Of a DNA stretch of 29,733 nt, positions 1 to 28,056 are shown in pieces. Position numbers and translations under genes: made by a program. The notes under the pieces are model-generated. The model saw nothing but the letters and a program-made list of their open reading frames with translations, ran no database searches and had not been told where the DNA came from. Source of the stretch: a virus. The stretch lies in the IMG/VR virus record IMGVR_UViG_3300028007_000007, positions 1 to 29,733 of that record, one strand, 5' to 3'. Each line of letters starts with the position of its first letter. Position 1 is the stretch's first letter.

Positions 1-484
1 ACCGCGCGCGGTCCACGGTGCCGTGCCCAGGATCCCAGGAGGGGCCGGTCCGTCCGTCGGCGCCATCCGCGTCGAGCAGGATGTCGACGTGCGGGATCTG
101 TGGCTGCCCGGTGTCGTACGTCACGAAGTCGATGGACCGATCCATCCAGCGGTTGCCGCTGTCCTTGTGGAGCAGCCCCCACCGGGTCGTCCCCTCGAGC
201 GCGTTGAGCTCGTGCGCCATGCGGTTGACGAAGGCGAGCGACTGCGCCCGGCTCTCGTCGCCGAACGGCCGCGGCGACAATCCGAGTTCACGCCAGCGCC
301 GCGCGACGTACGCACCGTGGTCGGGGACCTGGACCGGAGCGGACGTCATGCCGACGATCGGCGGCAGTTCGTCCAGGAAGCCGATCGAGGCCTCCGGCGA
401 CTGCACGCGGTCGGCCTGGAGAAACGCCGGCGCCGGCGTCAGCAGAAATAGCAGCAAGAACAGAGACGCAAAGACTCGACTCAC
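1..484 (-). CDS. Exported protein of unknown function, 3' end cut by window edge
   Basis: An open frame runs from a GTG at 484 to the window edge without a stop, so about 161 residues are visible and the C-terminus is missing. The GTG has a GAGG ribosome site about 7 bases upstream. An in-frame ATG at 499 is possible but has a weaker site. The product opens with a clear Sec signal peptide: a basic start, a Leu/Phe-rich core near residues 6-16, then PAPAFLQA. The mature part contains WGLLHKDSGNRWMDRS and HVDILLDADG. I do not recognise a family. It is the last visible gene downstream of the endolysin, where phages often place lysis accessory or host-surface genes. The frame follows the codon style of its neighbours, so I take it as real. 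Confidence 0.72.
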   Translation of the reverse strand, partial: MSRVFASLFLLLFLLTPAPAFLQADRVQSPEASIGFLDELPPIVGMTSAPVQVPDHGAYVARRWRELGLSPRPFGDESRAQSLAFVNRMAHELNALEGTTRWGLLHKDSGNRWMDRSIDFVTYDTGQPQIPHVDILLDADGADGRTGPSWDPGHGTVDRAR

Positions 485-573
485 GGGACACCTCACCATT
501 CGCCGCCGGGGCTCGGCAGTTGACGAACAGCGCGCGTCCTGTGAAAGGAGGAACGGGCGCGGACGAACGCAGA

Positions 574-840
574 TCAGAACATCTTCACCTGGCGTTTGCG
601 CACGCGGCGCCGATCTCGCGGATCGTCGCCACCTGGTAGCACCAGGTCACCCTCGCGAATCAACTGGTCGAGCGCATCGCCGACGCGTGCCGTCCACCGC
701 TGCTCCACATCGGAGTGCGCGCGGTACTCCGCGGCGCGGCGGGTCTTCCCCAGCAGTCGCCGGAGCTCCGACAGGATGCGGCGGCATCCGTGGATGCGCG
801 AGCGCGGCCGCGGCGGTACCGCCTCGAAGAGATCGCTCAT
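574..840 (-). CDS. Small basic protein downstream of endolysin
   Basis: An 88-residue protein whose ATG overlaps the stop of the endolysin gene by 4 bases (ATGA), so it is translationally coupled to it. It is rich in Arg and Lys, with RVRKRQVKMF at the C-terminus and a helical middle (RILSELRRLLGKTRRAAEYRAH). There is no signal peptide, membrane segment or cysteine pair. I do not recognise a family. The position suggests a lysis-cassette accessory or a small nucleic-acid-binding protein, but no motif shows either. It is not a spanin: it lacks both a lipobox and a transmembrane anchor. Confidence 0.7.
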   Translation of the reverse strand: MSDLFEAVPPRPRSRIHGCRRILSELRRLLGKTRRAAEYRAHSDVEQRWTARVGDALDQLIREGDLVLPGGDDPRDRRRVRKRQVKMF

Positions 841-1391
841 CGCGGCCCCGGGTCCACGCCGGTGCGGATCATGTGACAGACGCGATCGGCGCGACCGCGC
901 TTCCCCCCGAGCCCGTCGTCGACCTGACGCGCCCAGAGCGAATCCATCATGTGAAACGCGCAGGCGTCCCAGCAGGCCTGCGCCAGGCGCGGATCCGTCT
1001 GCGCGAGCGCGAGTCGACCCGCAGCGATCGCGCTGGTGAACGCGGCGGCGCGGGTGGCGCCCAGGTTGAACACGAAGTCGATGATCGCCCGCTGCCGGAC
1101 CGCCCCGAGCTGGTCGTACCGGGGCAGGCGCTCGCGGATCTGCGCCTCGAACGTGGGGATGTCTCTCCGGAGCACCGTCAGGGCATCCTCGCGGGTCAGG
1201 CGCCCGGCGCGCAGATCCTCGATCGTGACGCTGCGGCCAAGCGCCCGCTGCAGCGGGATCAGTCCGCGGTCCGACACGTTGTACCCGACGCCCCACGTCA
1301 GCTTGCCGCTCGTGCACAGGTACAGCGTCAGGCGGAGGCCTTCGTGCTGGATCAGCTGCGCCTCGAGCGCCGCGTAGTCCTGCGGTGTCAT
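837..1391 (-). CDS. Endolysin, T4-type lysozyme (GH24 muramidase)
   Basis: A 184-residue N-acetylmuramidase expected to cut the MurNAc-GlcNAc bond of host peptidoglycan at lysis. The N-terminus carries the family signature HEGLRLTLYLCTSGKLTWGVGYN. Aligned by eye to T4 lysozyme (Glu11, Asp20, Thr26), the catalytic positions are Glu17, Cys26 and Thr32. Cys in place of Asp is known in active family members such as P1 Lyz. The helical C-terminal lobe contains the expected RQRAIIDFVFNLG region. The length is normal for a single-domain enzyme. There is no signal peptide or signal-arrest-release segment, so it should depend on a holin for access to the wall. The ATG overlaps the upstream holin-like gene by 4 bases. 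Confidence 0.95.
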   Translation of the reverse strand: MTPQDYAALEAQLIQHEGLRLTLYLCTSGKLTWGVGYNVSDRGLIPLQRALGRSVTIEDLRAGRLTREDALTVLRRDIPTFEAQIRERLPRYDQLGAVRQRAIIDFVFNLGATRAAAFTSAIAAGRLALAQTDPRLAQACWDACAFHMMDSLWARQVDDGLGGKRGRADRVCHMIRTGVDPGPR

Positions 1392-1768
1392 ACGGTCGCC
1401 CCAGGCGGCAACAGCCGCGTGGTCTCGATCGCGCGCGCGAGCCGCGCGTTGGTCGCCTCAGACGCCGTGAGGGCCGCCGTGTTTTTCTCCACCAGGACGA
1501 CGAGGATCTGCATCCGTTCGTCCTTCGCCGCGTCCTGCCGGCGGTGTTCGCGCTGAATCCACCAGAACAGCACGAGGCAGACGATCGTCAGCCCTCCCTG
1601 GGTCAGTGCGTACTTAAAGAGCTGCTCGTCCATGGGTCCCCCGCTCGCCGTGGTCCGCCCGTCCTCGGCTGCCGGTGTCACCGCTGCAGCGGGGATCTGG
1701 GCGGACGACGCCGCGGGCTGGCTGAAGGCCAGACCCAGGAGAGCGCCGGCGAAGAGGAGCGCACGCAT
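1388..1768 (-). CDS. Holin-like membrane protein, possible dual start
   Basis: Taken from the ATG at 1768 this is a 126-residue protein. It has an N-terminal signal-like stretch (MRALLFAGALLGLAFSQ, then PAASSAQ), a transmembrane helix near residues 58-70 (LTIVCLVLFWWI), and a charged helical tail (EHRRQDAAKDERMQ). A second in-frame ATG at 1633 gives an 81-residue form starting MDEQLFKYAL, and it has a stronger GGGGGA ribosome site 3 bases upstream. The short form matches the general build of small phage holins or XhlA-like proteins: one membrane helix plus coiled coil. It lies directly before the endolysin, with which it overlaps by 4 bases. The holin role rests on topology and position, not on a family motif. 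A GTG at 1786 would extend it by six residues but has less support. Confidence 0.75.
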   Translation of the reverse strand: MRALLFAGALLGLAFSQPAASSAQIPAAAVTPAAEDGRTTASGGPMDEQLFKYALTQGGLTIVCLVLFWWIQREHRRQDAAKDERMQILVVLVEKNTAALTASEATNARLARAIETTRLLPPGATV

Positions 1769-1785
1769 TTCTCGATCGTCAGTCA

Positions 1786-1812
1786 CAAAATCGGTCGCCG
1801 GGGCGCGCCGAT
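1786..1812 (-). terminator. Possible intrinsic terminator before the lysis genes
   Basis: In the transcript sense (minus strand) ATCGG pairs with CCGAT around a GC-rich loop and is followed directly by TTTTG. It falls in the 64-base gap between the large tail protein gene (ends 1851) and the holin-like gene. The stem is short, so this is a weak terminator or attenuator at best. Confidence 0.35.
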
Positions 1813-1850
1813 GCGGACAGTTTCAGGTTCGGTACCTCAGGAACGGCAAG

Positions 1851-3545
1851 TTACGTTCCGAGCCGGTCCAGGAGGTAACGCTTCTCGTCGGCCGACAGGA
1901 TCACCAGCTCCGTCGACTGTCCGAGCTTGTTCCGCAACACCGTTGGCAGGTCCGTCGCGCCGCCCCGCCAATAGTCGAACCGGTTGGGCCGCGCGGGATT
2001 GGCCTCGAGGAAGGCCCGCGCCCAGGCGCGCAGCACTGGATGGTCGATCATGCCCGTCGGCCGACGGTCCGCGAACGGCATGACACAGACGATCGGGAAC
2101 TCCCGAATCCACCGCTCGTAGAGCGGCATGCACTCGACGATCTCCGCCACGGTCGCGCGACCGTTGCGCGTGAAGAAGGCCGGGGTGAGCGCCAGGGAGG
2201 TCCCCCACTGCGCGACCCGGTGCAGCATCGCGGTCACCCGCAGGTCGAAGGTCGCGAGGGGCTCGCCGGGATCCCGGTACGCCATCACCGACGGCCACAC
2301 CCGTGCCGACATCCAGGCGGGCCGCTGCAGGGGCCAGTCCTCGGCGCGCATCTTGTCGAGATACGCGATGACCGGCTTCTCCGGCCAGCCCAGCGCCACC
2401 TCGACCTTCTGCTCGAGCGTCGGGAGATCGGCCGCGTGCACGAACCACGCGATCGTGGTGTTGATGTGCACTGCGTCGATCGGCTCCTCGACCGCGACGA
2501 TCATCGGCTGACCCAAGCGCCGCACGCGGTCGAGCTCCGCGTGGATGCGGCCGGGGTGCTCGCGGTCGTCCCCCTCGACGTACACCGCGTTGCCGACGTG
2601 GTCCTCGATCGGCGTGTCACCGTACCGGTGCGAGTGGGTCTTGAACGGCGCGATCCACAGTTTCCGCGGCCAGGGACGGACCGCCGGAACCGGAACCGGT
2701 ACCGGCGCCTCGAGGAGCGCCACCATCGGGGCGCCGAGATCCTGCACGCGCACCTCCTGCTCGCCGGGTCGTGCGCCGGCGAAGACGGACCAGCAGACCA
2801 GCGCCTGCCCGTCGACGTCGCGCAGCTGCAGGCCGAACGCGCCGGCGTCCGGCCGCTGCACGAACGGGTACACGTATCCGCGGGTCGGGTCATCGGCCCG
2901 CCGAAGGACGACTTGGTAGCCGAGCTGATACGTCAGCCACCAGGTCCCCGCGACCTCGGCCAGGCGCACCAGGTTGGCGCCCTGCGGCAGCCCGACCGGT
3001 TGCGGGACACCGACGAAGTGCCAGCGGCCATCGTGCGTGCCGAAGACCGCGCGCCCGTCGCCGAGCAGCGTGAGGCTGTGCACCACGCCGGCGTAGAGTT
3101 CGACATCGTGGCCGTTCGGGTAGCGGAGCCGCACCGGGAAGTTGCGGAAGTCGGTGTACGCGATCGCGCCGTCCGGCCCCACGTCGTGCACGAACAGGCC
3201 AGGGTCGGCCCAGCCCGTCGACGCGAGCAGGCCGTCGCGGCTGGACGACACCGCCCACACGCCGCCGCCCGCTGCCCCGGCGTTTGCGCCACGCGGCGCG
3301 ACGGGGGTTACCGTCTGGGTGCGCTGGTCGTACAGCGCGATGCAGAGCCCCTGCGGATCCGTGCCCGCGGTCGGCGGGTCGAGCCGCGCGACGAGGACCG
3401 CGGTGTCCACGTCGTCGAGCCAGCCGACCGCGCCGGCGTCGGCCAGCCGGCTCCCAGCGTGCGTCGCCGACAGCGGCACGTTGGTGATCGACACCGGCCC
3501 CCACGTGCCGGCGAGCACGTCACCGCGACGGTTCGGATGCGCCAT
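1851..3545 (-). CDS. Large tail-region protein, propeller-like N-half and barrel-like C-half
   Basis: A 564-residue protein. The ATG at 3545 is chosen over the in-frame start at 3590 because it has a GTAGGAG ribosome site at good spacing. The N-terminal half (about 1-280) is a run of short beta-rich units with Trp/Gly turns such as GVWAVSSSRDGLL, GRAVFGTHDGRWHFVG and GTWWLTYQL, which looks like a beta-propeller. A proline run (APVPVPVPAVRPWPRK) links it to a C-terminal half. Alternating hydrophobic strands there (MIVAVEE, VIAYLDK, WPSVMAY, SLALTPAFF, FPIVCVMPF) suggest a glycosidase-like alpha/beta barrel. This is inference: I cannot name a family or assign catalytic residues. It follows the fibre genes and precedes the lysis genes, a typical place for receptor-binding or capsule-degrading proteins. 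Confidence 0.85.
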   Translation of the reverse strand: MAHPNRRGDVLAGTWGPVSITNVPLSATHAGSRLADAGAVGWLDDVDTAVLVARLDPPTAGTDPQGLCIALYDQRTQTVTPVAPRGANAGAAGGGVWAVSSSRDGLLASTGWADPGLFVHDVGPDGAIAYTDFRNFPVRLRYPNGHDVELYAGVVHSLTLLGDGRAVFGTHDGRWHFVGVPQPVGLPQGANLVRLAEVAGTWWLTYQLGYQVVLRRADDPTRGYVYPFVQRPDAGAFGLQLRDVDGQALVCWSVFAGARPGEQEVRVQDLGAPMVALLEAPVPVPVPAVRPWPRKLWIAPFKTHSHRYGDTPIEDHVGNAVYVEGDDREHPGRIHAELDRVRRLGQPMIVAVEEPIDAVHINTTIAWFVHAADLPTLEQKVEVALGWPEKPVIAYLDKMRAEDWPLQRPAWMSARVWPSVMAYRDPGEPLATFDLRVTAMLHRVAQWGTSLALTPAFFTRNGRATVAEIVECMPLYERWIREFPIVCVMPFADRRPTGMIDHPVLRAWARAFLEANPARPNRFDYWRGGATDLPTVLRNKLGQSTELVILSADEKRYLLDRLGT

Positions 3546-3611
3546 CTGAGCTCCTACCTTTGCTTGGGGCCTACCCGAGAGGCGAGACAATGAGCATGAG
3601 TGGTCGCGGCC

Positions 3612-3896
3612 CTATTGCGGCATCGTGCCGCCCACGGCTTCGATCGCGATCTGCTGCTGCTCCGGCGTGGCCACGTCGAATTTCTCCAACAGCTCATTGG
3701 TCACGCGTTCCTTGTAGCGGCGGAGCATCGCGCTGACGTATTCGCCGATGCGGCCCTCGAGGTGCTCGCGGGCCGTGATCGCGCGGCCTTCCGTCCGGCT
3801 CGCCTCCTGCGCGGCGAACGCGAGGGCGCGCTGCTCCTTCGGGCCAAACGCGATTTGGACGGTGAGCGGGTTGATACCGACGATCGTGATCTCCAT
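3612..3896 (-). CDS. Small helical protein paired with fibre B
   Basis: A 94-residue protein starting at the ATG at 3896, which has an AGAGG ribosome site about 8 bases upstream. It begins with a short beta-like segment (MEITIVGINPLTVQIAF), then a long charged helix (EHLEGRIGEYVSAMLRRYKE) and a helical C-terminus (VATPEQQQIAIEAVGG). It starts 11 bases after the stop of fibre B. A protein of almost the same size and layout (95 residues, at 16149-16436) follows fibre A at the same spacing, so the two probably share a role. Fibre assembly chaperones and tail-length helical bundles are candidates, but no motif decides this. Confidence 0.8.
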   Translation of the reverse strand: MEITIVGINPLTVQIAFGPKEQRALAFAAQEASRTEGRAITAREHLEGRIGEYVSAMLRRYKERVTNELLEKFDVATPEQQQIAIEAVGGTMPQ

Positions 3897-3907
3897 GTGG
3901 AGTCCTC

Positions 3908-5794
3908 TCACTGAATCTCGAACGTGATCTGCCCGATCACGTCGGTGCTGTTGGTGGCGGTCGACCAGTTCGCGGCGGTGCGCTTGTTGAACACAATGAG
4001 CGTGCCCCCGCTACCTACCGACGCGTACGCGTCCACGATCGTGCCCGCGTCCGCCGCATAGCCGATGGGCACGAGCGTGCTGCGGGCGGCCGTGAAGCCG
4101 CCCGGGATCGCGACGCGCAGCGCGCCAGGCGCCGCGCTCACGCTGGTCGACGTGAGCCGATACGTCACCGTCATGGTCTTGCCGACGAGCGTGTAGCCGA
4201 GTACCTCCTGGTCGGCACTCTCCACCGTCCACGTCCCTGCCGACGCCGAAAAGTGGCCGCTGTTGTACGCGACCGACTGCCATTCGCCGAGTGGCGTCGC
4301 GCGGTTCCGCTCCGTGATGGCGCTCGACGTGGAGAGCGCGCCCGTGATACTCGTCGTGCCCGTAAGCGCGATCTGATCGGCCACGAGCTGGGCGGCGGAA
4401 ACGGTGTTGCTCGACAGGCTCGTGAGCGTGAGCGAGGCCCAGTTCGACGGCGTGGGCCCCACGCTGTAGCTCCGCGCGCGCAGGATGATCCGGCCTTGCG
4501 ACGCGCCGAACGCCGGCGCGAGGTCGTTTTCCAAATAGAGATCCGTCAGACCTGATCCGGCGACGGAATAGAGGTCGAAGACCCCGCTGTGATTCGACGG
4601 CCGCGCGAACTTCAGCGCGTTGCTCGACAGGTAACTCGCCGCGGTGCCGAGGGTGATGTCGGGACCGGTGATCACGGCGCTCCCGCTGGCGTCAAGGCTG
4701 ATCTTCGTGGTGGATCCGTGGCCGATGCGGAGGCCATTCGTCGGATCGATCTTGATCCACGCCGCGGCCGGATCTCCAGCAGCGAGGCCGAAGACGCGCG
4801 AGCTGTACCCGAAGAATCCGTCGAGATTGCCCACGACGACGCGTGGCGTGAACGCGTCGTGGGTCACCCCCTGCTGCCCCCAGATCGTGCGGGGCCCAGC
4901 CGCGAGGTGCGCGATCCGCCCATCCCCAGCCGAGCCCAGCACCAAGAACGGCGTGCCGGCCGCCCACTCCGGGTCGGTCCCATGCGCGCCGGCGAGATCG
5001 CGCGTGACGGCGTAGGTGGTGCCGCTGACGAGCGCGCCCACCTGCAGGTACTCGACCTTGACGTCGCCGCTGGTGTCGTGCGCGCGGATTTCCACCCAGT
5101 CGGTCGCCGTCATCGACCGGCCGAAATCGATGCTCGTGTCCGACGGCGTCACCAGCGACGCAAGGGTCCCCGCCCCTTTGCCGATGATGTTGTAGCCGCC
5201 GAAGATCGTTTGCGTCGACGCGCTGAACACCAGCGAATGCAGCTGCCCGATCCACGCCTCGCGCCAGATGCGATCCGCACGACCCACATGGAACGCGTCG
5301 TGAGTGGCCGGCATCAGATGCGCCCCGATCGGCCCGAGAAACTGCAGATCCAGCGTCGACTCGCTGCCGCTCGTGTTCCGCACGGCCCAGTTCAGCCACC
5401 CGCTGCCGGACTTGTTCAGCAGCCAGGCGCCATCGCTCCCGATATAGAGCCCCTGACGCGCGAATACATTGCCGGTCGCGTCCACCGAGCCAGAAGCGCT
5501 GAGATCGGTCAGATTCGCCGACCCGACGAGCACGCCGTTGGCATCGGTTAATGCGCGCCACGCGCCGGCGATGTGCTGGTACCACTGCCCGGTGTCGGTG
5601 CGGAAGTACATGCTGCCGGACGGCGCCGAGGCCGAGGGTGCGCCCGAGCCGCTGTGGAGCGTCGCGGCGGGCGACCCAAGATAGATCCGCGAGACATCGA
5701 TCTCGGGCGCCTGCGCCAGCGCCGGCGCCGCCGCTGCGCACATGACGAGCGCGAGCAGGGCGCCTCTACACACGTTCAGATTGCACGAGCGCAT
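3908..5794 (-). CDS. Tail fibre-like protein B with signal peptide
   Basis: A 628-residue Ser/Thr/Gly/Ala-rich protein of fibre type. The N-terminus is a textbook Sec signal peptide: RSCNLNVCR, then a hydrophobic LLALVMCAAAAPALAQ, with predicted cleavage at ALA-Q. Next come the phage-fibre segment PSGSMYFRTDTGQWY and many short repeats (GNVFARQGLYIGSDGAW, GRADRIWREAWIGQL, TKISLDASGSAVITG) typical of beta-helical or triple-stranded fibres. The C-terminus (about 490-628) is beta-rich and less repetitive, as expected for a tip or receptor-binding domain. The ATG at 5794 has GGAG 9 bases upstream and lies 29 bases inside the hub gene. An export signal on a virion fibre is unusual. Confidence 0.85.
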   Translation of the reverse strand: MRSCNLNVCRGALLALVMCAAAAPALAQAPEIDVSRIYLGSPAATLHSGSGAPSASAPSGSMYFRTDTGQWYQHIAGAWRALTDANGVLVGSANLTDLSASGSVDATGNVFARQGLYIGSDGAWLLNKSGSGWLNWAVRNTSGSESTLDLQFLGPIGAHLMPATHDAFHVGRADRIWREAWIGQLHSLVFSASTQTIFGGYNIIGKGAGTLASLVTPSDTSIDFGRSMTATDWVEIRAHDTSGDVKVEYLQVGALVSGTTYAVTRDLAGAHGTDPEWAAGTPFLVLGSAGDGRIAHLAAGPRTIWGQQGVTHDAFTPRVVVGNLDGFFGYSSRVFGLAAGDPAAAWIKIDPTNGLRIGHGSTTKISLDASGSAVITGPDITLGTAASYLSSNALKFARPSNHSGVFDLYSVAGSGLTDLYLENDLAPAFGASQGRIILRARSYSVGPTPSNWASLTLTSLSSNTVSAAQLVADQIALTGTTSITGALSTSSAITERNRATPLGEWQSVAYNSGHFSASAGTWTVESADQEVLGYTLVGKTMTVTYRLTSTSVSAAPGALRVAIPGGFTAARSTLVPIGYAADAGTIVDAYASVGSGGTLIVFNKRTAANWSTATNSTDVIGQITFEIQ

Positions 5795-7598
5795 ACGCGG
5801 ACACTCCGTTCGTATCGGTGATCACGTCGAGCCGGTACCGTTTGCCGGCCTCCTCGGTGACCAGGAATTCGGTTTCGATGAGGACCTGCGGCGTGACCGC
5901 AGTGACCCAGCTCGATTCAACATCTGTTCCGTCGGTGAGGTTGTGCCACCGCACCTTCACCGCAACGCCGGCTGCCCGGGCGCCGAGTGCCGCGCGAATT
6001 CGCCGCGTACCGGTGGCGCGCGCGACGTGTGGGAGCCAGCCGACGATCGGCGTCCAGGCGGGCGGTGCCCCCATGGGCACCGCCATCTCCCTTGAGCCGC
6101 CGTGGAAGACGGAGGCGACATCTCCACCGGTCACGACGGTCACGCCTCCCGGCGGCGCCGCGGCATTCGAGCCGCCGCCCGCCGACCAGCCGGCGTAGGT
6201 GTCTTTCCAGGACGTGCGTGGCCACACCGTGCCGGAGATGGCTGTGACGTACCAGACGGGCCGGAACGGTTTCGGGCGACGCACGCGCACGTTCGTGATG
6301 AGGTGCGTGCCCGTCGCGCCGCGCGCCGGCGCTTCAATCGTCTGCGTCTGCCCCTTCCGCAATCCTGGGCGGCGGGTGGCGTAGGTGACACGAGAGTAGG
6401 AGGACTGCACGGCCCGGGCGAGATACGCTGCGGCAAACAGCTGGGCGACGTCGGCGGTGTAGACGTCCTCGCGGACGACCAGCGCCTCCCAGACGCCGAC
6501 GCCCGGCTTCGCCTGCTCGACCGCGTCGTCGACGACGACCTCATTGCCGAGCCCGGCGTCGAGGCCGAACAGGAGCGTCGACGTCGGTCCGCCGCCCTCG
6601 GTGAACCACCCCGCGCCGCCCGACGTGGAGTCCACGCCGATGTTGTTGCCGGCGCTGCCCGGCGTGAGGGCCACGACGCGCAGCGCAGTCGCGTGTTGAA
6701 AGTAGGCGGACACCTGCGTGTGCACGGCCGTGGCCGCCGAATAGAGCACTCCAGCCCCCACGCGATCCGCTGACGCGATCGCCAGCATCAGGTGAGACAG
6801 GCTCTCGTGCAGGTCTGGTCCAATCAGCACGCTGCCGCTGGAGCCCTGGAGTTCGTCGTGAAACGTATAGGTGCGCGAGCCGATCGTCACCTGGTCCCCA
6901 TCGACGACGTTCCCGCCGCCCCCGTAAAAGGCATAGGCTGCGAGCGCGGCGAAGGTGTAGCGCAGCCGGATCCGGTTTCCGTAGTCCAGGTCGACGCGCT
7001 CAACCTCGAGGTCACCGTAGACGTTGCCGTCACCTTCGACGATCGCGAACGGCGCGGGGTCGGTGCCAGGCAGAAACATCCGCACCGCGAGCGTGGGACT
7101 CACGTCGAGCGCGTAGCCAGTCACCATTTCCAAGTCCCCGGCGATGTCGGCGCCGCGGGTCGGCTCGGGATACGGCATCTCCGGCAGGTCGAGAGGCCCA
7201 TCCACCTGTGCCGGATCGAGCTCGAGCCCGTGCCCTGAGAAAAACGACACCAGCCACTGGAGCTTCGTTTTCAGTGACCCTGCCGGCATCGTGCCGGTGA
7301 CGTAGAGACGGTCGAAGATCGCGACGGCGTCGAGCGCCGTCACGTGGGTTTCCACCGGCGTCAGGCCGACGCCTCCAACGCCTGCCGACCGCGGCGTGTC
7401 AATCGTGCCGCGCGCGATCGGCACGCCGTTCTCGCGGACGAGTACCGTTTGCCGCTCGGCGGGAATGAACGACGCGTCACCGGAGGGGACATCAAAGGCG
7501 ATACTCCCGCGGCCGTCGAGATCCCACTCCACATCCAGTGACGTGGCGACGAACGGCCGGACGACGCCGTTGATCTCGATCTCATGGTCGACCGGCAT
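5766..7598 (-). CDS. Baseplate/tail hub-like protein
   Basis: A 610-residue protein starting at an ATG that shares one base with the tape measure stop (TGATG). The N-terminus (1-110: EIEINGVVRPF, VLVRENGVPIARG, VTALDAVAIFDR) resembles the beta-barrel hub domains of siphophage tail proteins. An inserted domain at about 228-352 contains the phage pattern GDQVTIGSRTYTFHDEL followed by a small helical/beta unit ending LLFGLDAG. The stretch FAAAYLARAV and RRPGLRKGQTQTIEAP match hub proteins in style. Position right after the tape measure supports a hub or distal tail role. The C-terminal 140 residues are beta-rich and may bind the fibres. The exact family is not certain. Confidence 0.82.
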   Translation of the reverse strand: MPVDHEIEINGVVRPFVATSLDVEWDLDGRGSIAFDVPSGDASFIPAERQTVLVRENGVPIARGTIDTPRSAGVGGVGLTPVETHVTALDAVAIFDRLYVTGTMPAGSLKTKLQWLVSFFSGHGLELDPAQVDGPLDLPEMPYPEPTRGADIAGDLEMVTGYALDVSPTLAVRMFLPGTDPAPFAIVEGDGNVYGDLEVERVDLDYGNRIRLRYTFAALAAYAFYGGGGNVVDGDQVTIGSRTYTFHDELQGSSGSVLIGPDLHESLSHLMLAIASADRVGAGVLYSAATAVHTQVSAYFQHATALRVVALTPGSAGNNIGVDSTSGGAGWFTEGGGPTSTLLFGLDAGLGNEVVVDDAVEQAKPGVGVWEALVVREDVYTADVAQLFAAAYLARAVQSSYSRVTYATRRPGLRKGQTQTIEAPARGATGTHLITNVRVRRPKPFRPVWYVTAISGTVWPRTSWKDTYAGWSAGGGSNAAAPPGGVTVVTGGDVASVFHGGSREMAVPMGAPPAWTPIVGWLPHVARATGTRRIRAALGARAAGVAVKVRWHNLTDGTDVESSWVTAVTPQVLIETEFLVTEEAGKRYRLDVITDTNGVSAYALVQSERV

Positions 7599-14948: not shown

Positions 14949-15011
14949 CTACCCGAACAGCGGATGCATCGCGGCGATCAGCACCATCACGATGAATGAC
15001 AGCGTTCGCAT
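14949..15011 (-). CDS. 20-residue hydrophobic mini-protein
   Basis: A 20-codon frame starting at ATG 15011, 2 bases after the stop of the connector gene, with GGGGG about 4 bases upstream. The product starts MRTLSFIVMVLIAAM and is essentially a lone signal-peptide or single membrane helix. It ends 7 bases before the start of the gp10-like gene. The junction bases, ribosome site and hydrophobic content argue for a real gene, but its size leaves doubt. It could be a leader used for coupling. Confidence 0.4.
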   Translation of the reverse strand: MRTLSFIVMVLIAAMHPLFG

Positions 15012-16446: not shown

Positions 16447-17643
16447 TTACTTGGCGACCCAGCCGGTGTTGGTTCCGGTCCCCGATTCCTTGACGTAGAG
16501 GCTCGTGCCTGCACCGCCATCGGTGCGGTGGTAGATCGCCCCTACGGGAGCAGTGACAGCACCTTCAGGAGAGCCAGACCCCACGCGCTGATACATCGAC
16601 TGGAAGCTGGCAAACACAGAGTCGTCAGCAAGACGCACTTGGAGTTCCGCTCCATTTCGCTTCAGCCCCGGGAAGCTGCTCGTCGTGCCGCCGAACTGGA
16701 GGCGGTTGAAATCGTTTTCAGCGTTATTCGTGAGGCGTAGAACCCCGTCACTAGGGCTGGAAATTGCGCTCCTGCTGGTGAAATACAACACGCCAGCCAG
16801 ACTTTGAAAGCCGCCGATAAACAGATTTCGCGGTCTATTTGCTAAGCTCGCGCCGATGTCGTAAGTGTTGTCGGCGTCCGCAAGCAAATGGCCGCTGCCA
16901 TTGATCGTCCAACGGTCGGTATTGTTCGTGCGGAACTGAATGGCTGCGTTTCCTGCCGTTCCGAAGCGCATTGCGCGAGCCGTGCCGGTGCCTGCCTGCT
17001 GCACCATCACCGAGAAGCGGTCGCCGTCCCACCCTGCGTGGAGTCGTTCGTAGTTGCTCGCGTCTGTGAACGTGCCATAGAGTCTGAACGTCTGCGCGTT
17101 CGCCCCGCGCCGCAGCGCGAGGGTGTCCGCGGCATCGCGCACAACGGTGAGATCCGACGATCCTCCCGGCGTCCCCCACGACAGATTGCTTGCCGACGCA
17201 ATCTGGACTGATCCCGACGTTAGTGTGAGTTGGGTCGCACCACCCGAACCGAGATAGAGATAGCTCGTCCCACTTCGGAACTGCGTCCACGTCGAACCGC
17301 TCCCGCCGTTCTCAATCAAGAGCGCATTCACCCCGCTCATGGCGAGGTTCACTTGGTTGCTGGCCCGATACCAACCCGTGTTTGTGCTATTGCCGAAGGT
17401 GAAGGACGGCGCGGACGCGCTGCCATCGCCCACGCGGACGGCCGCGCCGATTGAGAGGATGTCAGTCGTCTTGTTGAACGTCAGGCCGGATGTCGCCCCG
17501 AACGTCCCGCCGTCGTTGAAGATGACCTGGGTGTCGACGCCGGGGATGGCGAGCGTCGCGCGTGCCGGGATGATCTCCACCTGTCCGGCCGCTGGGCGGA
17601 CGACGGCTACGACGAGCGCGAGCGCGAGGACGGTCCGTCTCAC
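16447..17643 (-). CDS. Tail fibre-like protein A with signal peptide
   Basis: A 398-residue protein starting at GTG 17643, coupled to the upstream gene by a GTGA overlap. It opens with a signal peptide (RRTVLALALVVAVVRPAAGQ). It then has the repeated motifs of phage fibre/virion structural proteins: PSFTFGNSTNTGWYR, TNNTDRWTINGSGHLLADADNTYDIGAS, NRPRNLFIGG. It ends with the well-known segment GAIYHRTDGGAGTSLYVKESGT and GWVAK. These repeats suggest a beta-rich trimeric fibre. Two features are odd. It lies between capsid and connector genes, not near the tail tip. Its base composition is also lower in GC than its neighbours, pointing to a different history. Confidence 0.85.
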   Translation of the reverse strand: MRRTVLALALVVAVVRPAAGQVEIIPARATLAIPGVDTQVIFNDGGTFGATSGLTFNKTTDILSIGAAVRVGDGSASAPSFTFGNSTNTGWYRASNQVNLAMSGVNALLIENGGSGSTWTQFRSGTSYLYLGSGGATQLTLTSGSVQIASASNLSWGTPGGSSDLTVVRDAADTLALRRGANAQTFRLYGTFTDASNYERLHAGWDGDRFSVMVQQAGTGTARAMRFGTAGNAAIQFRTNNTDRWTINGSGHLLADADNTYDIGASLANRPRNLFIGGFQSLAGVLYFTSRSAISSPSDGVLRLTNNAENDFNRLQFGGTTSSFPGLKRNGAELQVRLADDSVFASFQSMYQRVGSGSPEGAVTAPVGAIYHRTDGGAGTSLYVKESGTGTNTGWVAK

Positions 17644-18011
17644 GGCTCCTGCCCTTTCGGCGGCGTCGGCGCGCGCACGAGCGTCTTCGTCTGCCAGTCG
17701 AACGTGTCGCCCTTCTCCGGGTCCCCGCCGAGGGCGCGCACCATCTTCTCGCCGAGGGTCTTCTGTCGGGCCGTGAGCTGCTGGGTGAGGAGCTGCGCTT
17801 CGAGCGCGAGCGCGTCGTTCGAGGCTTTGGCGAGGTTGGCGCGCAGCTGCGCGTTCTCGACCGTGAGCGCAAACACTTCGAGCTCGAGCTCCAGTTCCCG
17901 CGTCAGGGTCGGCTTGGCCGGTGCCTCCGACGGCGCCGCAGCTTGCTGCGCCGACGCGGCACTCAGCAGGCTGCAGCACATCACAATCGTCCAGACGGCG
18001 CGGAAGGTCAT
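17640..18011 (-). CDS. Exported coiled-coil protein
   Basis: A 123-residue protein whose ATG overlaps the previous stop by 4 bases. Residues 1-22 form a Sec signal peptide (FRAVWTIVMCCSLLSAASAQ). The mature protein is a long charged helix (LTRELELELEVFALTVENAQLRAN, then ASNDALALEAQLLTQQL) likely to form a coiled coil, with a short C-terminal tail (DTFDWQTKTLVRAPTPPKGQEP). No family recognised. It is encoded directly upstream of fibre A and may be its periplasmic or structural partner. It has no lipobox, so a spanin role is not supported. Confidence 0.78.
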   Translation of the reverse strand: MTFRAVWTIVMCCSLLSAASAQQAAAPSEAPAKPTLTRELELELEVFALTVENAQLRANLAKASNDALALEAQLLTQQLTARQKTLGEKMVRALGGDPEKGDTFDWQTKTLVRAPTPPKGQEP

Positions 18012-18385
18012 CGTGCACACTCCAGCGGCAACTTGCCGCTCGTCGCGCCGGTGCGAATGGCGCGGAAGGTTTCCAGATTCGAGGTACCGCGAATCACGAT
18101 CGTGTCGCCGACCTCCAGCAGGATCCCGTCCGACGCCGTGGGCGTCGCACTGGTCCAGTACCGGACCTGCGCGGTTTCGAGGCGGCCGCGGCACTCGCGC
18201 GCGACTTCGCCCGTGGCTGTGGTGATCGTCGCCGGCGCGATCCGCGTGGGCTGGTCCGTGATGGTCAGCGTTTCGCGCGAGATCACCTGCTGGGCGCCGA
18301 GCACCGCCATCAGGGCGCACACGGCGCCGCCGATGGTCAGGGCGATCAGCCGCGCCCGCGGTCCGGGAGAACGATGACGACGCAT
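18008..18385 (-). CDS. Small exported or anchored protein after the capsid gene
   Basis: A 125-residue protein starting at ATG 18385, with AAGG about 7 bases upstream. It has a basic start (RRHRSPGPRARL), then a hydrophobic segment (IALTIGGAVCALMAVLGAQQ) that could be a cleaved signal or an anchor. A beta-rich part follows (LTITDQPTRIAPATITTATGE, ILLEVGDTIVIRGTSNLETFRAI). Two cysteines (CRGRLE and LECAR) could form a disulfide outside the cytoplasm. The size and place after the major capsid gene recall capsid decoration proteins, but the leader argues otherwise. Function unknown. Confidence 0.75.
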   Translation of the reverse strand: MRRHRSPGPRARLIALTIGGAVCALMAVLGAQQVISRETLTITDQPTRIAPATITTATGEVARECRGRLETAQVRYWTSATPTASDGILLEVGDTIVIRGTSNLETFRAIRTGATSGKLPLECAR

Positions 18386-18458: not shown

Positions 18459-18471
18459 TCACGATCGCGAT

Positions 18472-19881: not shown

Positions 19882-19942
19882 GGTCGTGTACTCCGTGACT
19901 CCATGCCGCGGCGACGCGGCGAAACTGTGTGCGTGCAGGTCC

Positions 19943-21601: not shown

Positions 21602-21630
21602 GAGTGCCTCGTGAGAAACGGAGCCGCCAA

Positions 21631-21707: not shown

Positions 21708-21823
21708 CTCCTCTGGCGTTGTCGATCCTGGCAGCGGAGAGCCCCACTGCCGCAACCCGGGTTCATGAGGCCCGGGCGGACCGACGACCTGAAATCTGAA
21801 TGAGCCCTCTCTCAGGGCAAGGT

Positions 21824-22450
21824 TCATTCCCGGTCCGACTCCTCCTCCTCGACCGGGAAAAAGGCCCGCACGCAGTTCGGGTGCGCGATCGGGTTGTTCA
21901 GGCACTTCGTCCCGCTCCACACCTGCCCGTTGGCGGCGGCGCACTCCGGATCGTCGGTGCCATCGATGACCTCGAAGCTCTTGAACCCCGCCTGCTCGGC
22001 GCCGAGGACCGCCCCGTGGTTGTAGGCGATCGCGCTCTCGGTCCGCGCGATCCGCAGCGCGCGGAAGACCTCGTAGTGCTCGTAGGTCTTGCGCACGGCC
22101 CCGAGGATGCGATCGGCGAGCGTCGCCGGCGTCAGGTCGTCGCCGCCCTCGAGCGCCCGGGTGACGGTGCGGATCACGTCTTTTTGTGATGTCCGCGACA
22201 ACTGTGTAATCCGCTCGCCGAGGTATGCCGTCATGTGCTTCTGCAGGAACGGGTCGTCCTGATTGAACGTGACGTCGTGCGCCGCGGCCGCGGCGGTCCC
22301 CTGGCCGACCACGAGATCGCGATACACCTGCTCGAGCTCCGGAGCGAGCTGCTGGTTCCACTCGGCCCAGGGGAAGGATTTCACGAGCGCGCGCAGCTGC
22401 TTCGCAGTGATCGGCCGCTTTTTCGGCGGGTCCTTCTTCTCGACGATCAC
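21824..22450 (-). CDS. MuF-like minor head protein
   Basis: A 208-residue protein starting at GTG 22450, with GGAG 9 bases upstream and a GTGA overlap with the upstream gene. An upstream extension of the frame to 22612 lies inside that gene and is not needed. The C-terminal half carries the SPP1 gp7/Mu gpF head morphogenesis signature: FRALRIARTESAIAYNHGAVLGAEQAG, then DGTDDPECAAANGQVW and HPNCVRAFFP, with Cys/His at the usual places. The N-terminal half is helical (PWAEWNQQLAPELEQVYRDL). These proteins bind the portal inside the head and may be ejected with the DNA. No toxin domain is fused. Confidence 0.88.
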   Translation of the reverse strand: MIVEKKDPPKKRPITAKQLRALVKSFPWAEWNQQLAPELEQVYRDLVVGQGTAAAAAHDVTFNQDDPFLQKHMTAYLGERITQLSRTSQKDVIRTVTRALEGGDDLTPATLADRILGAVRKTYEHYEVFRALRIARTESAIAYNHGAVLGAEQAGFKSFEVIDGTDDPECAAANGQVWSGTKCLNNPIAHPNCVRAFFPVEEEESDRE

Positions 22451-22881
22451 GGCCGGTGCTCCAGCGCGAAGCAGAACGGATCCGGCTTGCCCTCGAACAG
22501 CGTGCGCTCGCCCGGCGCGCACACGCAGCCAGGGAACAGGTCCGCGTGCGGCATCGCCGCGGCCAGCATCCGGTAGGCTTCCGTGGCGTGGTGCTCCGCT
22601 TGGAACTCGCACACGAAGGCGCTACGCCGACGCAGATGAAACGTGGTGCGACCGCACCAGCGACAGGGCAGCGGCACAGCGCTGATCTTCGCCGGCGCCG
22701 GCCGCGGCACGAGGAGCCGGTCGTCGATCGGCGGTACCGGTACCGGCGGCCGCCGGCGCAGACGCTGGACGACGCGGCCGCATCCCTTCAGCAGCAGGAT
22801 CGTGCCGAGCACGACCACCAGCACGGTGAACCAGGCCACCGCGGCGATCGCCGTCCCGACCCGTCCGACGGTCCTCACCAT
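22447..22881 (-). CDS. Membrane-anchored Cys/His protein
   Basis: A 144-residue protein starting at ATG 22881, overlapping the ParB-like gene by 7 bases. An upstream in-frame GTG at 22893 is less likely. Residues 10-31 form one membrane helix (AIAAVAWFTVLVVVLGTILL), followed by a basic, Pro-rich linker. A Cys/His-rich part follows: CRWCG at 73-77, C91, HH at 97-98, and C119/C121. The basic flank after the helix predicts a cytoplasmic C-terminus where zinc could bind. No family recognised. A membrane protein placed between portal and MuF genes is unusual. Confidence 0.78.
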   Translation of the reverse strand: MVRTVGRVGTAIAAVAWFTVLVVVLGTILLLKGCGRVVQRLRRRPPVPVPPIDDRLLVPRPAPAKISAVPLPCRWCGRTTFHLRRRSAFVCEFQAEHHATEAYRMLAAAMPHADLFPGCVCAPGERTLFEGKPDPFCFALEHRP

Positions 22882-23477
22882 GTGTGTCCGCACTCCGGGC
22901 AGATCGTCTGGTCCTCGTCGGCGGGATCGTGCGCCGGCGCTGCGGCCGCGTCCGGCTCGATCGAGCGGCCGGCTTCCGGTTTTTCACACTCTTCGGAGGG
23001 TCCCCTCGTCCGCTTGGTGTTGTCCGGGAGCGGGGCCAGCTCCCCCTTCTCGTCGGCCTCCCCGAGGATCCGCGCGAGCTCGCGGTCGAAGAAGTACTCC
23101 GACAGGCTGACGCCGGGCACGTGGTGGAGCAGGACGTTCGGATCCCAGTCGAGGCTGACCTCGCTCGTCCGGTTGTCGGCGATCGCCAGCTCCCGCGCAC
23201 GCGCGTCCGTCCCGCTCGCGAGATCCAGATCCATGCGTTGCACGACGACGAGCTTCCGGCCGTCCGTCCTGACGACCTCGACGTCGAGGCCCGCCTGGCC
23301 GGCCATCTCCCAGGTCTTGTTGCCGGCGATGATCACGCCGTGCCGATCGACGACGATGGATCGCCCGGCGCCGTTGCGCTCGATCGAGCGCTCCAGAAGA
23401 TCGTGACCGCGCTTCGTGCCCTTGTTCGCGTTGTGCGGATCGGGGGTGATGTCGGCGATCTGGCGGATGGTCTTCAC
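22875..23477 (-). CDS. ParB/Srx-fold protein with C-terminal zinc pair
   Basis: A 200-residue protein starting at GTG 23477 (AGGGGA site 7 bases upstream, GTGA overlap). The N-terminal half matches the ParB/sulfiredoxin fold: TIRQIADITPDPHNANKGT, then DLLERSIERNGAGRSIVVDRHGVIIAGNKTWEMA. The ParB box is changed (GNKT at 52-55 in place of the usual GERR/GNRR). The second half has RARELAIADNRTSE, as in the phage ParB-like proteins often found beside DNA methylases, and VSLDWDPNVL. The last eight residues, CPECGHTW, form a CxxC pair. It could bind or nick DNA, or act as a CTP-type switch. No partner ParA or methylase gene is visible in the window. Confidence 0.85.
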   Translation of the reverse strand: MKTIRQIADITPDPHNANKGTKRGHDLLERSIERNGAGRSIVVDRHGVIIAGNKTWEMAGQAGLDVEVVRTDGRKLVVVQRMDLDLASGTDARARELAIADNRTSEVSLDWDPNVLLHHVPGVSLSEYFFDRELARILGEADEKGELAPLPDNTKRTRGPSEECEKPEAGRSIEPDAAAAPAHDPADEDQTICPECGHTW

Positions 23478-23956
23478 CGCGGGTCCCCTTCGATCGTCAG
23501 GATTTCGGCGCGATCACGACCGACCACCTTGCCGCGGCTATCGATGACAGCGGCGGTGAACACGTAATGCGCCGGCGGCATGTCGCGCAGCCAGTCCGTG
23601 CGCACCGCCGGCGCCTGGTCGCCCTCGAGCGGGACCTGGTAGCCGCCGTCCTTGCCGTTTTCCGACAGCCAGGAGACGGCGAGGAGCCGATGATCGGCGT
23701 GTCGCGGGATCCGCGCCTCGACCGACACGTCGCCGCGGCGCAGCATGGCCTGGGGCCGCACCTTCAGCGTGAGGCAACTCGCGGCGTGGACCTGCGTGCC
23801 GCACCAGAGGCCGACGATGAACGTCAGCGTCACGAGGGCCAGCAGCCACGGCCAGCGGCGCGGCGGGCGCGGCGAGGTCGCGATCGGCAGGTACTCGCGC
23901 AGCCCTTCGCCGGCAAAGCCCTGCGGCACCGCGATAGGTTCATGCCGCAGCGTCAT
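23474..23956 (-). CDS. Single-pass membrane protein with Ig-like external domain
   Basis: A 160-residue protein starting at ATG 23956 (ATGA overlap with the portal stop). Residues 33-34 are basic, then residues 36-52 (WPWLLALVTLTFIVGLW) are a membrane helix or uncleaved signal. The following ~105 residues have alternating strands (LTLKVRPQAMLRRGDVSVEA, HRLLAVSWLSENG, HYVFTAAVIDSRGKVVGRD), the pattern of an Ig/Fn3-like sandwich. Topology suggests the domain faces the periplasm. No family recognised. Such an anchored protein could change the host surface during infection, for example superinfection exclusion, but this is inference. Confidence 0.78.
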   Translation of the reverse strand: MTLRHEPIAVPQGFAGEGLREYLPIATSPRPPRRWPWLLALVTLTFIVGLWCGTQVHAASCLTLKVRPQAMLRRGDVSVEARIPRHADHRLLAVSWLSENGKDGGYQVPLEGDQAPAVRTDWLRDMPPAHYVFTAAVIDSRGKVVGRDRAEILTIEGDPR

Positions 23957-25854: not shown

Positions 25855-25855
25855 C

Positions 25856-26260
25856 TCATCGCTCCTGACATCCCGCCTCTGCGCTCCGGGAGCGTGGCTT
25901 CGGGCGACCGAGGGTGCCGATCTGCCAGCGGCCGGACAGCGCCGGCGCCGCGCTGTTGGCTTCGGTCGTCGCGCGGCCGTTCGGGTCGAACTTCCGCACG
26001 TGCACGCCGTGCGGCAGGTCGGCGGACGTCACCGGCGCCGGCGGACGCGGCGGGTTGGTGTTGAGCCAGGTGCGCGCGTGCGTCTCCTGCACGGCGTCCG
26101 CGAGCAGCGCCACCTCGGCCTGCAGCTGCGCCAGCGTCTGGCCGATCTCCGTGGCGGCCGCGGCGGCTGGCGCCGCGTGGGCGATCACTCGCAGCTGGGC
26201 GACCACGTCGCGGGTGGACGCCGTGAGCCGCGCGAGGGCCTGCAGCTGCTCGCTGGTCAT
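25856..26260 (-). CDS. Helical protein between terminase and portal
   Basis: A 134-residue protein starting at ATG 26260 (ATGA overlap with the large terminase stop), frame chosen for its clean protein-like sequence MTSEQLQALARLTAST. Residues 1-65 are mostly Ala/Leu/Gln helix (TEIGQTLAQLQAEVALLADAV) and probably a coiled coil. The second half is Pro/Arg-rich and likely disordered (NPPRPPAPVTSADLPHG, GRPKPRSRSAEAG). A competing frame in the same DNA gives an Arg-rich, low-quality product. No family recognised. Confidence 0.72.
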   Translation of the reverse strand: MTSEQLQALARLTASTRDVVAQLRVIAHAAPAAAAATEIGQTLAQLQAEVALLADAVQETHARTWLNTNPPRPPAPVTSADLPHGVHVRKFDPNGRATTEANSAAPALSGRWQIGTLGRPKPRSRSAEAGCQER

Positions 26261-28056
26261 CCACGGCCCTCGCGCTCCTTGCGCGCGCGCTCCGCGTCCC
26301 GCGCCTTCAGCTGCTTCATGAAGTCGAGCATCGCGTTGTGCGTGCCGCGGAGATAGGTCACGAGCTGGGTGAACGCGTCGACGTCGTCGTCGTGCCGTCC
26401 CTTGGGGAACACGGCGCAGTTCGCGACGAAGCGCTGCACCCACGCCCGCTCGGGCATCACCTTCCCTGTCCTGCCGTCGATCGGGTTCGGCAGGTAGACG
26501 TTGCCGCCCTTCAGCGTGGGCTGCGCAGCGAACGCGCGGGCCACCTTGCCGCCCTGCGGATCGACGTCCACGATGCCGGAGATCTCCTGCCGGAGGACCT
26601 CGATCACGGCGGGTCCGTTGGCCTTGTCCTCGATGAGGATCGCGGGCAGGTGCGGGTACCGGCTGCGCATCTGTCGGATCTCGTCGCAGCTCGCGCCGAA
26701 GCCGCGGCGGTCCATGAAGTACGCGCGAATGTAGATGTCGGGGCCGTACAGCTCGCCGACGAGGCAGGCGATGAAGTCGGACGTCTTGAGATCCTTGAAC
26801 GCGAGGTCCCACGACTGCGCGCCGTGATCGGGCTTCCGCGGCTTTCCCTCGGCGTCGACGGGCAGCGCATCGTAGTACCGCCACCACTGCTCCTGCAGGA
26901 TCTGGCCGCCTCGCGGGGCCGGGCGCTGCTGTTGCTGCGCGGCGAAGACGACCTCGTCCTCCGCGCGCATCTTGTCAAGCGCTTCGCGCGGGAACCGCTT
27001 CGGGTTCAGCGGCTCACCTTCCTCGGTGCGCGGGTCTTCGAAGAAGAGGACGCGTTTGTGGCCGACCGGCGCTACCTGCCGCAGTGTGGGCAGGTCCTCT
27101 TCGGCGGCGGGGGTGGCGGCGGCGCCGGTCGAATCTGGTTCGTTGGTACCGGCCTCGGCTCCTGCGGCATCATCCCTCCTCACGTACACGAACGTCCGGC
27201 ACCGATCCTCGACCTCGAACGCCGCCGGCAGCTTCAGGTGGACCCAGCCGTCCTCCTTCAGCACGTGGCCGCACAGGTCGTTTTCGTGCAGCCGCTGCAT
27301 GATGATGATCCGGACGTCGTTGATCTGGTCGTTGAGGCGGGTGACGAGCCCCGTCTTCCACATCTCGACGATGTGCTCGAGCTCGTTCTGGCTCGCGAGC
27401 TTGTTGGCGTCGATCGGATCGTCGACGACGAGGTAGTTCGCGCCCTCGCCCATGACGCCGCCGCGCATCGAGCCGATCATGCGGTAGCCGGTCTGGTCGT
27501 TATCGAAGCGGTCCTTCGCGTTCTGGTCGCCGGTCAGGCGGAACCGCGCGCCCCAGTTCTGCTGGTACCAACCCGACGTGATGACCGCGCGCGTGTAGCG
27601 CGAGTCGCGACGCGCCAGGCGCAGCGCGTGCGTGATGAAGATGAACCGTTTCCCTGGCAGGTTCCGCGGGCCCCACACCCACGAGGGGAACGCCACGCAC
27701 GTGGTCGTGGACTTCGAGTTCCGCGGCGGCACGTTGATCACCAGCTGGTTGATCTGCGGCCGCTCGTTCGGTGGCGCGACCGTCGCCTGCAGGTGATCGC
27801 AGATCGCATCGACGTGCCAGTTGTCGACCCGCGGCTGCAGGCGCTCGACGATCTTCCACTGCTGGCGGTAGAACGATCGCAGCGAGGTCTCCGCCTTGCG
27901 CGCGAGCAGCTCTTCCTGCGCCTCGATCGACCGCAGCAGTTGCTTGGCGGTCGGCCGCGTGCGCACCGCGGCCTGCTCGCCGGCGGTGGCCAGGCGCACG
28001 TCACCCACGAGCAGCGCTCCGATCGTGGCGAGCGCGACGCAGAGCGCGCGGATCAA
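26257..28056 (-). CDS. terL: Terminase large subunit
   Basis: A 599-residue packaging motor with ATPase and nuclease halves. The adenosine-binding region starts DNWHVDAICDHL near 78-89. The Walker A-like loop is VPPRNSKST near 109-117. Walker B is YLVVDDP near 208-214. The coupling region is IIIMQRLHENDL near 250-261. An acidic Ala-rich insert lies at about 286-330. The nuclease half has WDLAFKD (Asp417), ILIEDKANG (Glu476/Asp477) and HDDDVDAF near 555-562. The start is TTG 28056 with GGGAG 8 bases upstream, overlapping the TerS stop. This start adds a hydrophobic leader (RALCVALATIGALLVG) not normal for the family; a GTG at 27999 (residue 20) is a possible alternative. Confidence 0.95.
   Translation of the reverse strand: MIRALCVALATIGALLVGDVRLATAGEQAAVRTRPTAKQLLRSIEAQEELLARKAETSLRSFYRQQWKIVERLQPRVDNWHVDAICDHLQATVAPPNERPQINQLVINVPPRNSKSTTTCVAFPSWVWGPRNLPGKRFIFITHALRLARRDSRYTRAVITSGWYQQNWGARFRLTGDQNAKDRFDNDQTGYRMIGSMRGGVMGEGANYLVVDDPIDANKLASQNELEHIVEMWKTGLVTRLNDQINDVRIIIMQRLHENDLCGHVLKEDGWVHLKLPAAFEVEDRCRTFVYVRRDDAAGAEAGTNEPDSTGAAATPAAEEDLPTLRQVAPVGHKRVLFFEDPRTEEGEPLNPKRFPREALDKMRAEDEVVFAAQQQQRPAPRGGQILQEQWWRYYDALPVDAEGKPRKPDHGAQSWDLAFKDLKTSDFIACLVGELYGPDIYIRAYFMDRRGFGASCDEIRQMRSRYPHLPAILIEDKANGPAVIEVLRQEISGIVDVDPQGGKVARAFAAQPTLKGGNVYLPNPIDGRTGKVMPERAWVQRFVANCAVFPKGRHDDDVDAFTQLVTYLRGTHNAMLDFMKQLKARDAERARKEREGRG

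Follow-up and report, generated by a model that had tools for sequence, protein, structure and literature searches.

Two leadered fibre genes and a tail hub

The window analysed here is the whole 29,733-base stretch of IMG/VR virus record IMGVR_UViG_3300028007_000007 (class linear), which contains tailed-phage genes (terminase, portal, capsid) and holds its structural genes on the minus strand, as it does every window feature whose coordinates are written below with two dots. It encodes two tail fibre proteins, fibre A and fibre B, each of which begins with a predicted cleavable signal peptide (leader) for the Sec pathway. Fibre B (fibB, 3908..5794, 628 residues) is the product of the gene after the tail hub. 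Its candidate signal peptide, MRSCNLNVCRGALLALVMCAAAAPALA-Q, occupies 5714..5794, with the A-Q junction set by comparison; the presumed cleavage site comes after each of the three candidate starts, ATG5794, GTG5773 and ATG5743. A match to fibB was found in neither Pfam nor PHROG. Fibre A (fibA, 16447..17643, 398 residues, GTG start) matches the tail fiber family phrog_9942 (E 2.8e-7) and carries a signal peptide, MRRTVLALALVVAVVRPAAG-Q, predicted at 17584..17643 with the n-h-c scorer described below.

The gene preceding fibB (5766..7598) encodes a protein of 610 residues with no leader and no cysteine. Its AlphaFold model is of low confidence (predicted local distance difference test score, pLDDT, 56). 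A Foldseek search with this model returned 3cdd (E 2.9e-12), 1wru (1.3e-9) and the CBM6 entry 1uxz (9.5e-5). As modelled, the protein resembles a Mu gp44/T4 gp27-like tail hub, in which a gp27/gp44-like core is followed by a C-terminal region like family 6 of the carbohydrate-binding modules (CBM6).

Adjoining fibA is cc (17640..18011), which encodes a coiled-coil-like protein of 123 residues with the leader site ASA-Q. Next to it is p125 (18008..18385), with the leader site LGA-Q and mature cysteines 65 and 123. Exact four-base overlaps join the cc ATG to the p125 stop, the fibA GTG to the cc stop and, elsewhere, the p160 ATG to the portal stop.

Prediction and number of leaders

Leaders were predicted with a home-made n-h-c scorer, which considers a charged n-region, a hydrophobic core and small residues at -3/-1. 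Seven known Escherichia coli leaders score 10.6-13.1 with it. Eight of the 32 window genes scored reach at least 9.7: terL (10.1), p144 (10.1), p125 (10.4), cc (10.9), fibA (11.6), fibB (12.1), the holin gene (9.7) and the gene at the left edge (12.6). By the same scorer the connector (4.9) is leaderless, as are the portal, major capsid protein (MCP), protease, tube, tape measure and hub; the remaining scored genes, among them p134 and two upstream genes, yield no leader candidate, and neither does one alternative frame. An earlier first-pass annotation of this DNA had described a wave of leaders through the virion operon, and this is rejected because these seven virion genes are leaderless.

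The same annotation had pointed to Ala/Gly-Gln at the predicted cleavage site of five proteins, and all five sites are present: ALA-Q in fibB, AAG-Q in fibA, ASA-Q in cc, LGA-Q in p125 and SSA-Q in the holin. The best cut given by the scorer coincides with the Gln in fibA, cc and the holin, but precedes that junction by two residues in fibB and by one in p125. According to the scorer, the N-termini of fibB, fibA, cc, p125, the holin and the left-edge protein, together with those of seven further fibres, have the sequence features of Sec/signal peptidase I substrates.

A background set was drawn from 291 genes downstream of terL at 63 of 80 genome loci, 17 loci having been excluded by eye before counting, and a leader cut-off of 9.5 was applied. 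Against it the window appears enriched (8/30 versus 22/291 leadered, p=0.003; with terL dropped, 7/30, p=0.011). The excess vanishes when the window is compared with the Acidobacteriota part of the background (5/28, p=0.53) or with genes of a related host, genome G067 (24/149 at a stricter cut-off, p=0.19). Ten pieces of G067, each of 20 kb, contain 24 predicted leaders, seven of which likewise have an [A/S/G]Q site. Thus, of the suggestion that about ten of some thirty proteins carry hydrophobic leaders, the leaders of the fibres and of several small proteins look real, but their number alone is unremarkable; what is remarkable is their place on fibres.

Split and fused fibres in related phages

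Two relatives, L011 (G002) and L005 (G003), were found with fibB. Later ones were sought with the hub gene upstream, and were therefore not chosen by their leaders. A separate fibre gene directly follows the hub gene in eight lineages: the window, L011, L005, L016, L117, L019, L024 and L113. L018, a near copy of L019, is not counted apart, and L025 is unreadable and stands outside the classes. In all eight split lineages the separate fibre opens with a leader that has an A-Q junction (scores 10.6-13.4), so that the search for the same leaders in related phages, proposed with the first-pass annotation, finds them in the same place throughout. In four of the eight the fibre frame opens before the hub frame ends, with an overlap of exactly four bases between leader start and hub stop.

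In a second class, hub and fibre are read as a single frame with no leader ahead of the fibre part. It comprises L020, L021 and L121 (in the last two the contig ends before the frame does, and L121 has no readable hub N-terminus), together with L144, which is assigned here from its length and from reading only, lacks the seam motif described below and matches no fibre family. The leader is present in 8/8 split versus 0/3 fused lineages (p=0.006; with L144 0/4, p=0.002), both values assuming independent lineages and overstating that independence because the lineages share ancestry. The annotation had also held that relatives lacking the leader would speak against it. Such relatives exist, but only as fusions; no separate leaderless fibre was found, and L026/L027 (a hub-like frame, no separate fibre) and L145 (a hub whose next gene is a leaderless non-fibre gene) fit neither class.

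Close relatives differ more in the leader than behind it. L019 and L024 are identical at 29 of 30 positions from the Gln onward, in the mature part, versus 7 of 17 in the leader; for L016 and L117 the figures are 19/28 and 7/18.

The fused and split forms can be compared part by part. In L020, L021 and L121 the hub core is followed by a Gly-rich stretch and then by a seam motif, GT-x-(L/V)AKW-x-GDS. A seam-like motif (general form GT..L..W....GDS) lies behind the fibre N-domain in the split L016, L117, L019 and L024, with LPVW for LAKW in L019. An extra hub C-terminal region of about 110 residues aligns in all eight split hubs and is absent from the three fused hubs aligned. From these sequences it appears that a block made up of the extra hub region, the stop, the leader and the N-domain occupies the place of a covalent link between hub and fibre, and the comparison suggests that the extra hub region and the N-domain are docking partners. 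Moreover, fibB and the hub-fused fibre of L020 share 51% identity over 235 residues. This homology, together with the split/fused comparison, speaks for a tail fibre as the product of the leadered gene.

Further matches bear on the identity of the fibres. S74 is found in the split L005 and the fused L020, and tail-fibre PHROG families match the L005, L019 and L020 fibres. The L011 fibre is 32% identical to fibA over 231 residues. Lectin or CBM domains occur in the L113 and L019 fibres. A fold search with the fibre N-domain brought no gain, its best match having E 1.3 (model pLDDT 57.5). A domain like it lies at the C-end of an annotated gene in all six records inspected among 33 matching cultured-phage records. 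In L117 the leadered fibre is directly followed by a leaderless gene that reads like a glycoside hydrolase (L117:13069-13866).

Paired cysteines in the fibres of relatives

The mature parts of the fibres contain the following numbers of cysteines: fibB 0, fibA 0, L011 2, L005 4, L016 10, L117 8, L019 15, L113 6 and the partial L024 2. In all six complete leadered fibres with at least two cysteines, these are closer-paired than under random placement (L011 p=.046, L005.014, L016.0005, L117.0024, L019.039, L113.0038). The combined value is 2.7e-8, or 7.6e-7 with L117 dropped, the fibres not being fully independent. When the first 60 mature residues are removed, the clustering values lie at 0.0015-0.08. 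A pair 15-18 residues apart lies in the N-domain of L005, L016, L117, L019, L024 and L113, and is absent from the window and L011. The count is even in five of the six complete fibres.

Controls are without clustering: five hubs with at least two cysteines give 0.23-0.85, the fused L020 0.29 and L144 0.42, and three tape measure proteins have no cysteine. The close pairs in these fibres fit disulfides, and hence an oxidising compartment, in the relatives.

Possible coiled-coil-like partners of the fibres

In five phages (the window, L011, L005, L019 and L113) a leadered coiled-coil-like protein is encoded at most two genes from a leadered fibre. The counterparts of cc, recognised by similar layout, are L011:8061-8366, L019:11381-11722, L005:11374-11670 and L113:11672-12061. 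Those of L011 and L019 are homologous (E 2e-9), while the rest share a layout and a loose resemblance at the C-end. An A-Q site is present in the window, L011 and L113 proteins only. In these proteins no lipobox was seen by inspection, no dedicated lipoprotein predictor having been run, and a leader is predicted instead. As a guess, the coiled-coil-like protein would assist the fibre in the periplasm, as a chaperone or adaptor; cc itself may be a spanin or a periplasmic chaperone.

Proposed export of the fibres and alternative explanations

In the usual picture of tailed phages, tail assembly as well as the folding and attachment of fibres takes place in the cytoplasm. The genes described here fit a different course. 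The fibre would be made with a cleavable Sec signal peptide and expressed late, together with the hub. Sec export would be followed by a signal peptidase I cut at A|Q, and the fibre would then fold in the periplasm, with disulfide bonding in the Cys-bearing relatives and perhaps with the co-exported coiled-coil-like protein as chaperone or adaptor. Once the envelope opens at lysis, the fibre would meet the tail hub built in the cytoplasm, through a docking pair in which the N-domain, next after the cleavage site, faces the extra hub C-terminal region. In the hub-fused relatives a covalent link would stand in place of this pair.

That the fibres are exported is, judged from their sequences, very probable. 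Whether an exported fibre goes on to join virions is close to an even bet, and the whole course, from Sec export through periplasmic oxidation to joining the hub at lysis, is held at evenly balanced odds. The first-pass annotation had raised exported fibre forms, and the leaders of all eight split fibres, the four leaderless fusions and the Cys pairs in six relatives favour them, but these data suit a destination in the virion and one elsewhere alike. A fuller version is a two-compartment route, in which heads and tails form in the cytoplasm while the fibres are Sec-exported, trimmed, trimerised and oxidised with a phage-encoded helper, docking only during lysis. Fusion of hub and fibre, with loss of the leader, the N-domain and the extra hub region, would then be an evolutionary switch to assembly in one compartment. 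This version is put forward tentatively, at somewhat less than even odds.

Several observations count against export and virion assembly of the fibres, as do the shared ancestry of the lineages and the limits of the fused class given above. The case for export is drawn from sequence, and cytoplasmic assembly of shafts like these is feasible, as the fusions demonstrate. The A-Q cut was placed by hand, and the scorer cuts two residues earlier in the window, L019 and L113. A GTG lies just behind the presumed cut in fibA (in frame, at 17580), L016 and L019, so that leaderless isoforms are possible. In distant pairs the contrast between leader and mature part is not always seen, and in some it is reversed (window/L024: leader 10/15, mature 8/28). 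The hub N-terminus of the fused L020 scores 8.6, under the cut-off, and the coiled-coil-like leader of L113 scores only 8.8. The L011 and L113 fibres match no PHROG and those of L016 and L117 no tail-fibre PHROG; L026/L027 and L145 stand outside both classes. Both window fibres are without mature cysteine, such that the disulfide argument comes from relatives, among which L019 has an odd number and the partial L024 alone gives p 0.28.

The main rival is that the exported fibres are secreted adhesins outside the virion, which coat the host or debris and mask receptors or block superinfection, the CBM-like region of the hub binding the receptor. The leader and the Cys pairing fit export without any virion role, the CBM6-like C-terminal region of the window hub is absent from the aligned fused hubs, and the lectin and CBM domains of the L113 and L019 fibres would suit an adhesin. 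The position after the hub gene and the four-base overlap with it in half of the lineages suit a tail part instead, and L020 and, by reading, L121 carry homologous shafts joined directly to the hub; a long trimeric fibre would then stay periplasmic until lysis. The adhesin explanation is accordingly judged possible but rather unlikely. Less probable again is that the hydrophobic N-terminus is retained, with no export, and serves, inserted into the tail tip, as a trimerising plug or an inner-membrane tether. The hydrophobic segments do lie near the N-terminus and cytoplasmic assembly is the rule for tailed phages; yet A-Q is kept in all eight lineages while the hydrophobic part drifts, the conservation between L019 and L024 begins right at the Gln, and the Cys pairing speaks against it.

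The least likely source of the leaders is coincidence or misplaced starts, in a GC-rich genome where codons for Ala, Leu and Val abound. terL is possibly such a case, 22 of the 291 background genes score as leaders, and the window has no more of them than Acidobacteriota loci or host genes. Against this stand the same place of the leader in eight lineages, the four-base overlaps in four and its presence at lower GC in L117 (0.61), which leave this explanation highly improbable overall; for fibB it already appears unlikely because the leader is conserved.

Other hydrophobic N-termini and neighbouring genes

Of the proteins to which leaders had been ascribed, fibA, fibB, cc, p125, the holin and the left-edge protein look cleavable, whereas p144 (22447..22881), with an N-terminal hydrophobic and then an Arg-rich stretch, and p160 (23474..23956), with a hydrophobic stretch from about residue 38, read as membrane anchors. 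Outside the fibres the hydrophobic N-termini are thus read as mixed: the holin in lysis, p144 and p160 as anchors, and p125 and the left-edge protein (2..499, cut off by the contig end) as small leadered proteins. A tblastn search with p125 in phages brought no gain. A mini open reading frame of 20 hydrophobic residues (14949..15011) is unproven and falls below the length limit of the scorer.

The possible leader of the large terminase (terL, 26257..28056) is doubtful because the hydrophobic N-terminus that begins at TTG28056 is not shared by its homologues: 14 of the 15 listed align only from residue 38 onward, and that of an Erythrobacter phage, aligned from residue 3 by tblastn and only from residue 59 by BLASTP, has no hydrophobic N-terminus. 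As a counterpoint, TTG28056 overlaps the terS stop by four bases, which speaks for this start. That terL is an exported protein is, on its sequence, doubtful.

The putative holin (1388..1768) resembles BhlA just below the family cut-off (Holin_BhlA 22.1 bits versus 22.6) and has an extra N-terminal leader. It has two starts in frame, ATG1768 with the leader and ATG1633, behind a G-rich stretch, without it, and a dual-start holin is possible. The small leaderless protein after fibre B, p99 (3612..3911), has an L011 counterpart that is 81% identical. Window bases 1851-3590 encode a 579-residue leaderless protein with weak similarity (30-34%) to stretches of L011 and L013, possibly a spike or an enzyme. 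In the same phage, at the integrase end and outside the virion operon, L007:3025-3591 (minus strand) has a leader-like N-terminus (score 9.7, VAQ site); the other genes listed near it score at most 8.4.

Leadered or lipoprotein-like proteins were also seen in other loci. L113:13499-13888 and L016:16119-16499 are homologous tail-region proteins with a close Cys pair (34% identity), and L117:15647-16024 has a like layout but did not align with them. L038 and L071, Acidobacteriota loci whose head genes are related to those of the window, share between terL and portal a conserved leadered protein of 179 residues with two mature cysteines (L038:12012-12551, L071:6328-6867). Near the end of a phage-like contig of G067, L123:307-2331 encodes a leadered protein of 674 residues (SAQ) with five cysteines and no family match. 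L144:2150-2632 is an apparent lipoprotein gene (LTAC lipobox by reading) between tape-measure-like and hub genes on a 4.86 Mb Acidobacteriota contig.

The phage and its apparent hosts

G001, a 57.4 kb sequence of the same collection, matches window bases 272-29,733 with one mismatch. Its other 28 kb hold an integrase, repressor-like and early genes (named by reading), and the window phage therefore looks temperate.

Among the loci compared, the window portal and MCP are most like those of the Acidobacteriota loci L038 and L071 and of the Sphingomonas locus L092. L071 belongs to G005, of the Terriglobia, a class of Acidobacteriota. The hub was matched in one of 396 genomes of the phylum of G005, namely G067, whose 41.9 kb contig carries L113 and may be a phage contig binned with it. 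Hub frames read as fused are carried by G640 (of the class of G067, in which 2/193 genomes matched, G067 included) and by G870 (of the class of G005, 1/299 matched, on a 4.86 Mb contig). A leadered protein of 609 residues is encoded close to the G870 frame; it passes the Pfam cut-off for the phage tail repeat PTR and has clustered cysteines (p=0.022). These soil phages apparently infect Acidobacteriota.

Other searches were less productive. A genome scan with terL gave no close host (best 36%), and a sample of 199 Planctomycetota genomes gave one clear and one weak hub match. Two hub queries had no match at E 1e-3 in 50,697 phage records, a hub profile brought no gain in 10 terL genomes, and no hub was found in the Sphingomonas genome of L092. 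In 195 genomes of the phylum of G013, hub query A6 brought no gain and query A3 two weak short matches; neither query A1 against genome contigs nor the final two viral scans brought any gain. A weak match, G1157, was rejected as VgrG-like by reading.

Relation to known systems

The shaft, S74 (in L005 and L020) and the position after the hub are shared with trimeric tail fibres bearing S74 chaperone and shaft repeats, from which the split form differs by its cleavable-looking Sec leader and by the paired cysteines of six relatives. The gene preceding fibB is like Mu gp44/T4 gp27-like hubs in predicted fold, but has an extra C-terminal region in split lineages, while other lineages have it fused directly to the fibre. 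Filamentous phages have virion proteins, pIII and pVIII, that are made with a cleavable signal peptide and exported by Sec. The resemblance lies in the leadered virion protein, while the present genes belong to a phage whose terminase, portal and capsid genes mark it as tailed.

Sec export of a phage protein before lysis is described for signal-peptide endolysins such as Lys44 of phage fOg44 (PMC6116005, PMC8878798); these and the signal-arrest-release (SAR) endolysins differ from the fibres in being lysis enzymes, not tail parts. Lom of phage lambda, an exported protein encoded among tail fibre genes (PMC12309495), is alike in export and gene neighbourhood but is an outer-membrane barrel, not a fibre. 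PMC10698182 and PMC12989515 report no signal peptides in their phages, although PMC12989515 mentions them at another point for endolysin and holin; PMC5723332 gives two and one signal peptides in two Bacteroides phages, and PMC6199706 describes phage target proteins of diversity-generating retroelements without signal peptides. In the open full-text literature searched, which leaves most subscription papers and preprints beyond reach, no description of exported tail fibres was found. The apparent export suggests a maturation route for fibres that has not been reported.

Tail fibres determine host range. If the proposal is true, an exported, disulfide-bonded fibre attached at lysis would alter the picture of tailed-phage assembly, the host Sec and Dsb enzymes would become phage maturation factors, and a natural secretable fibre would be at hand. 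It offers a testable explanation of why phages from a phylum with few cultured members carry such odd leaders.

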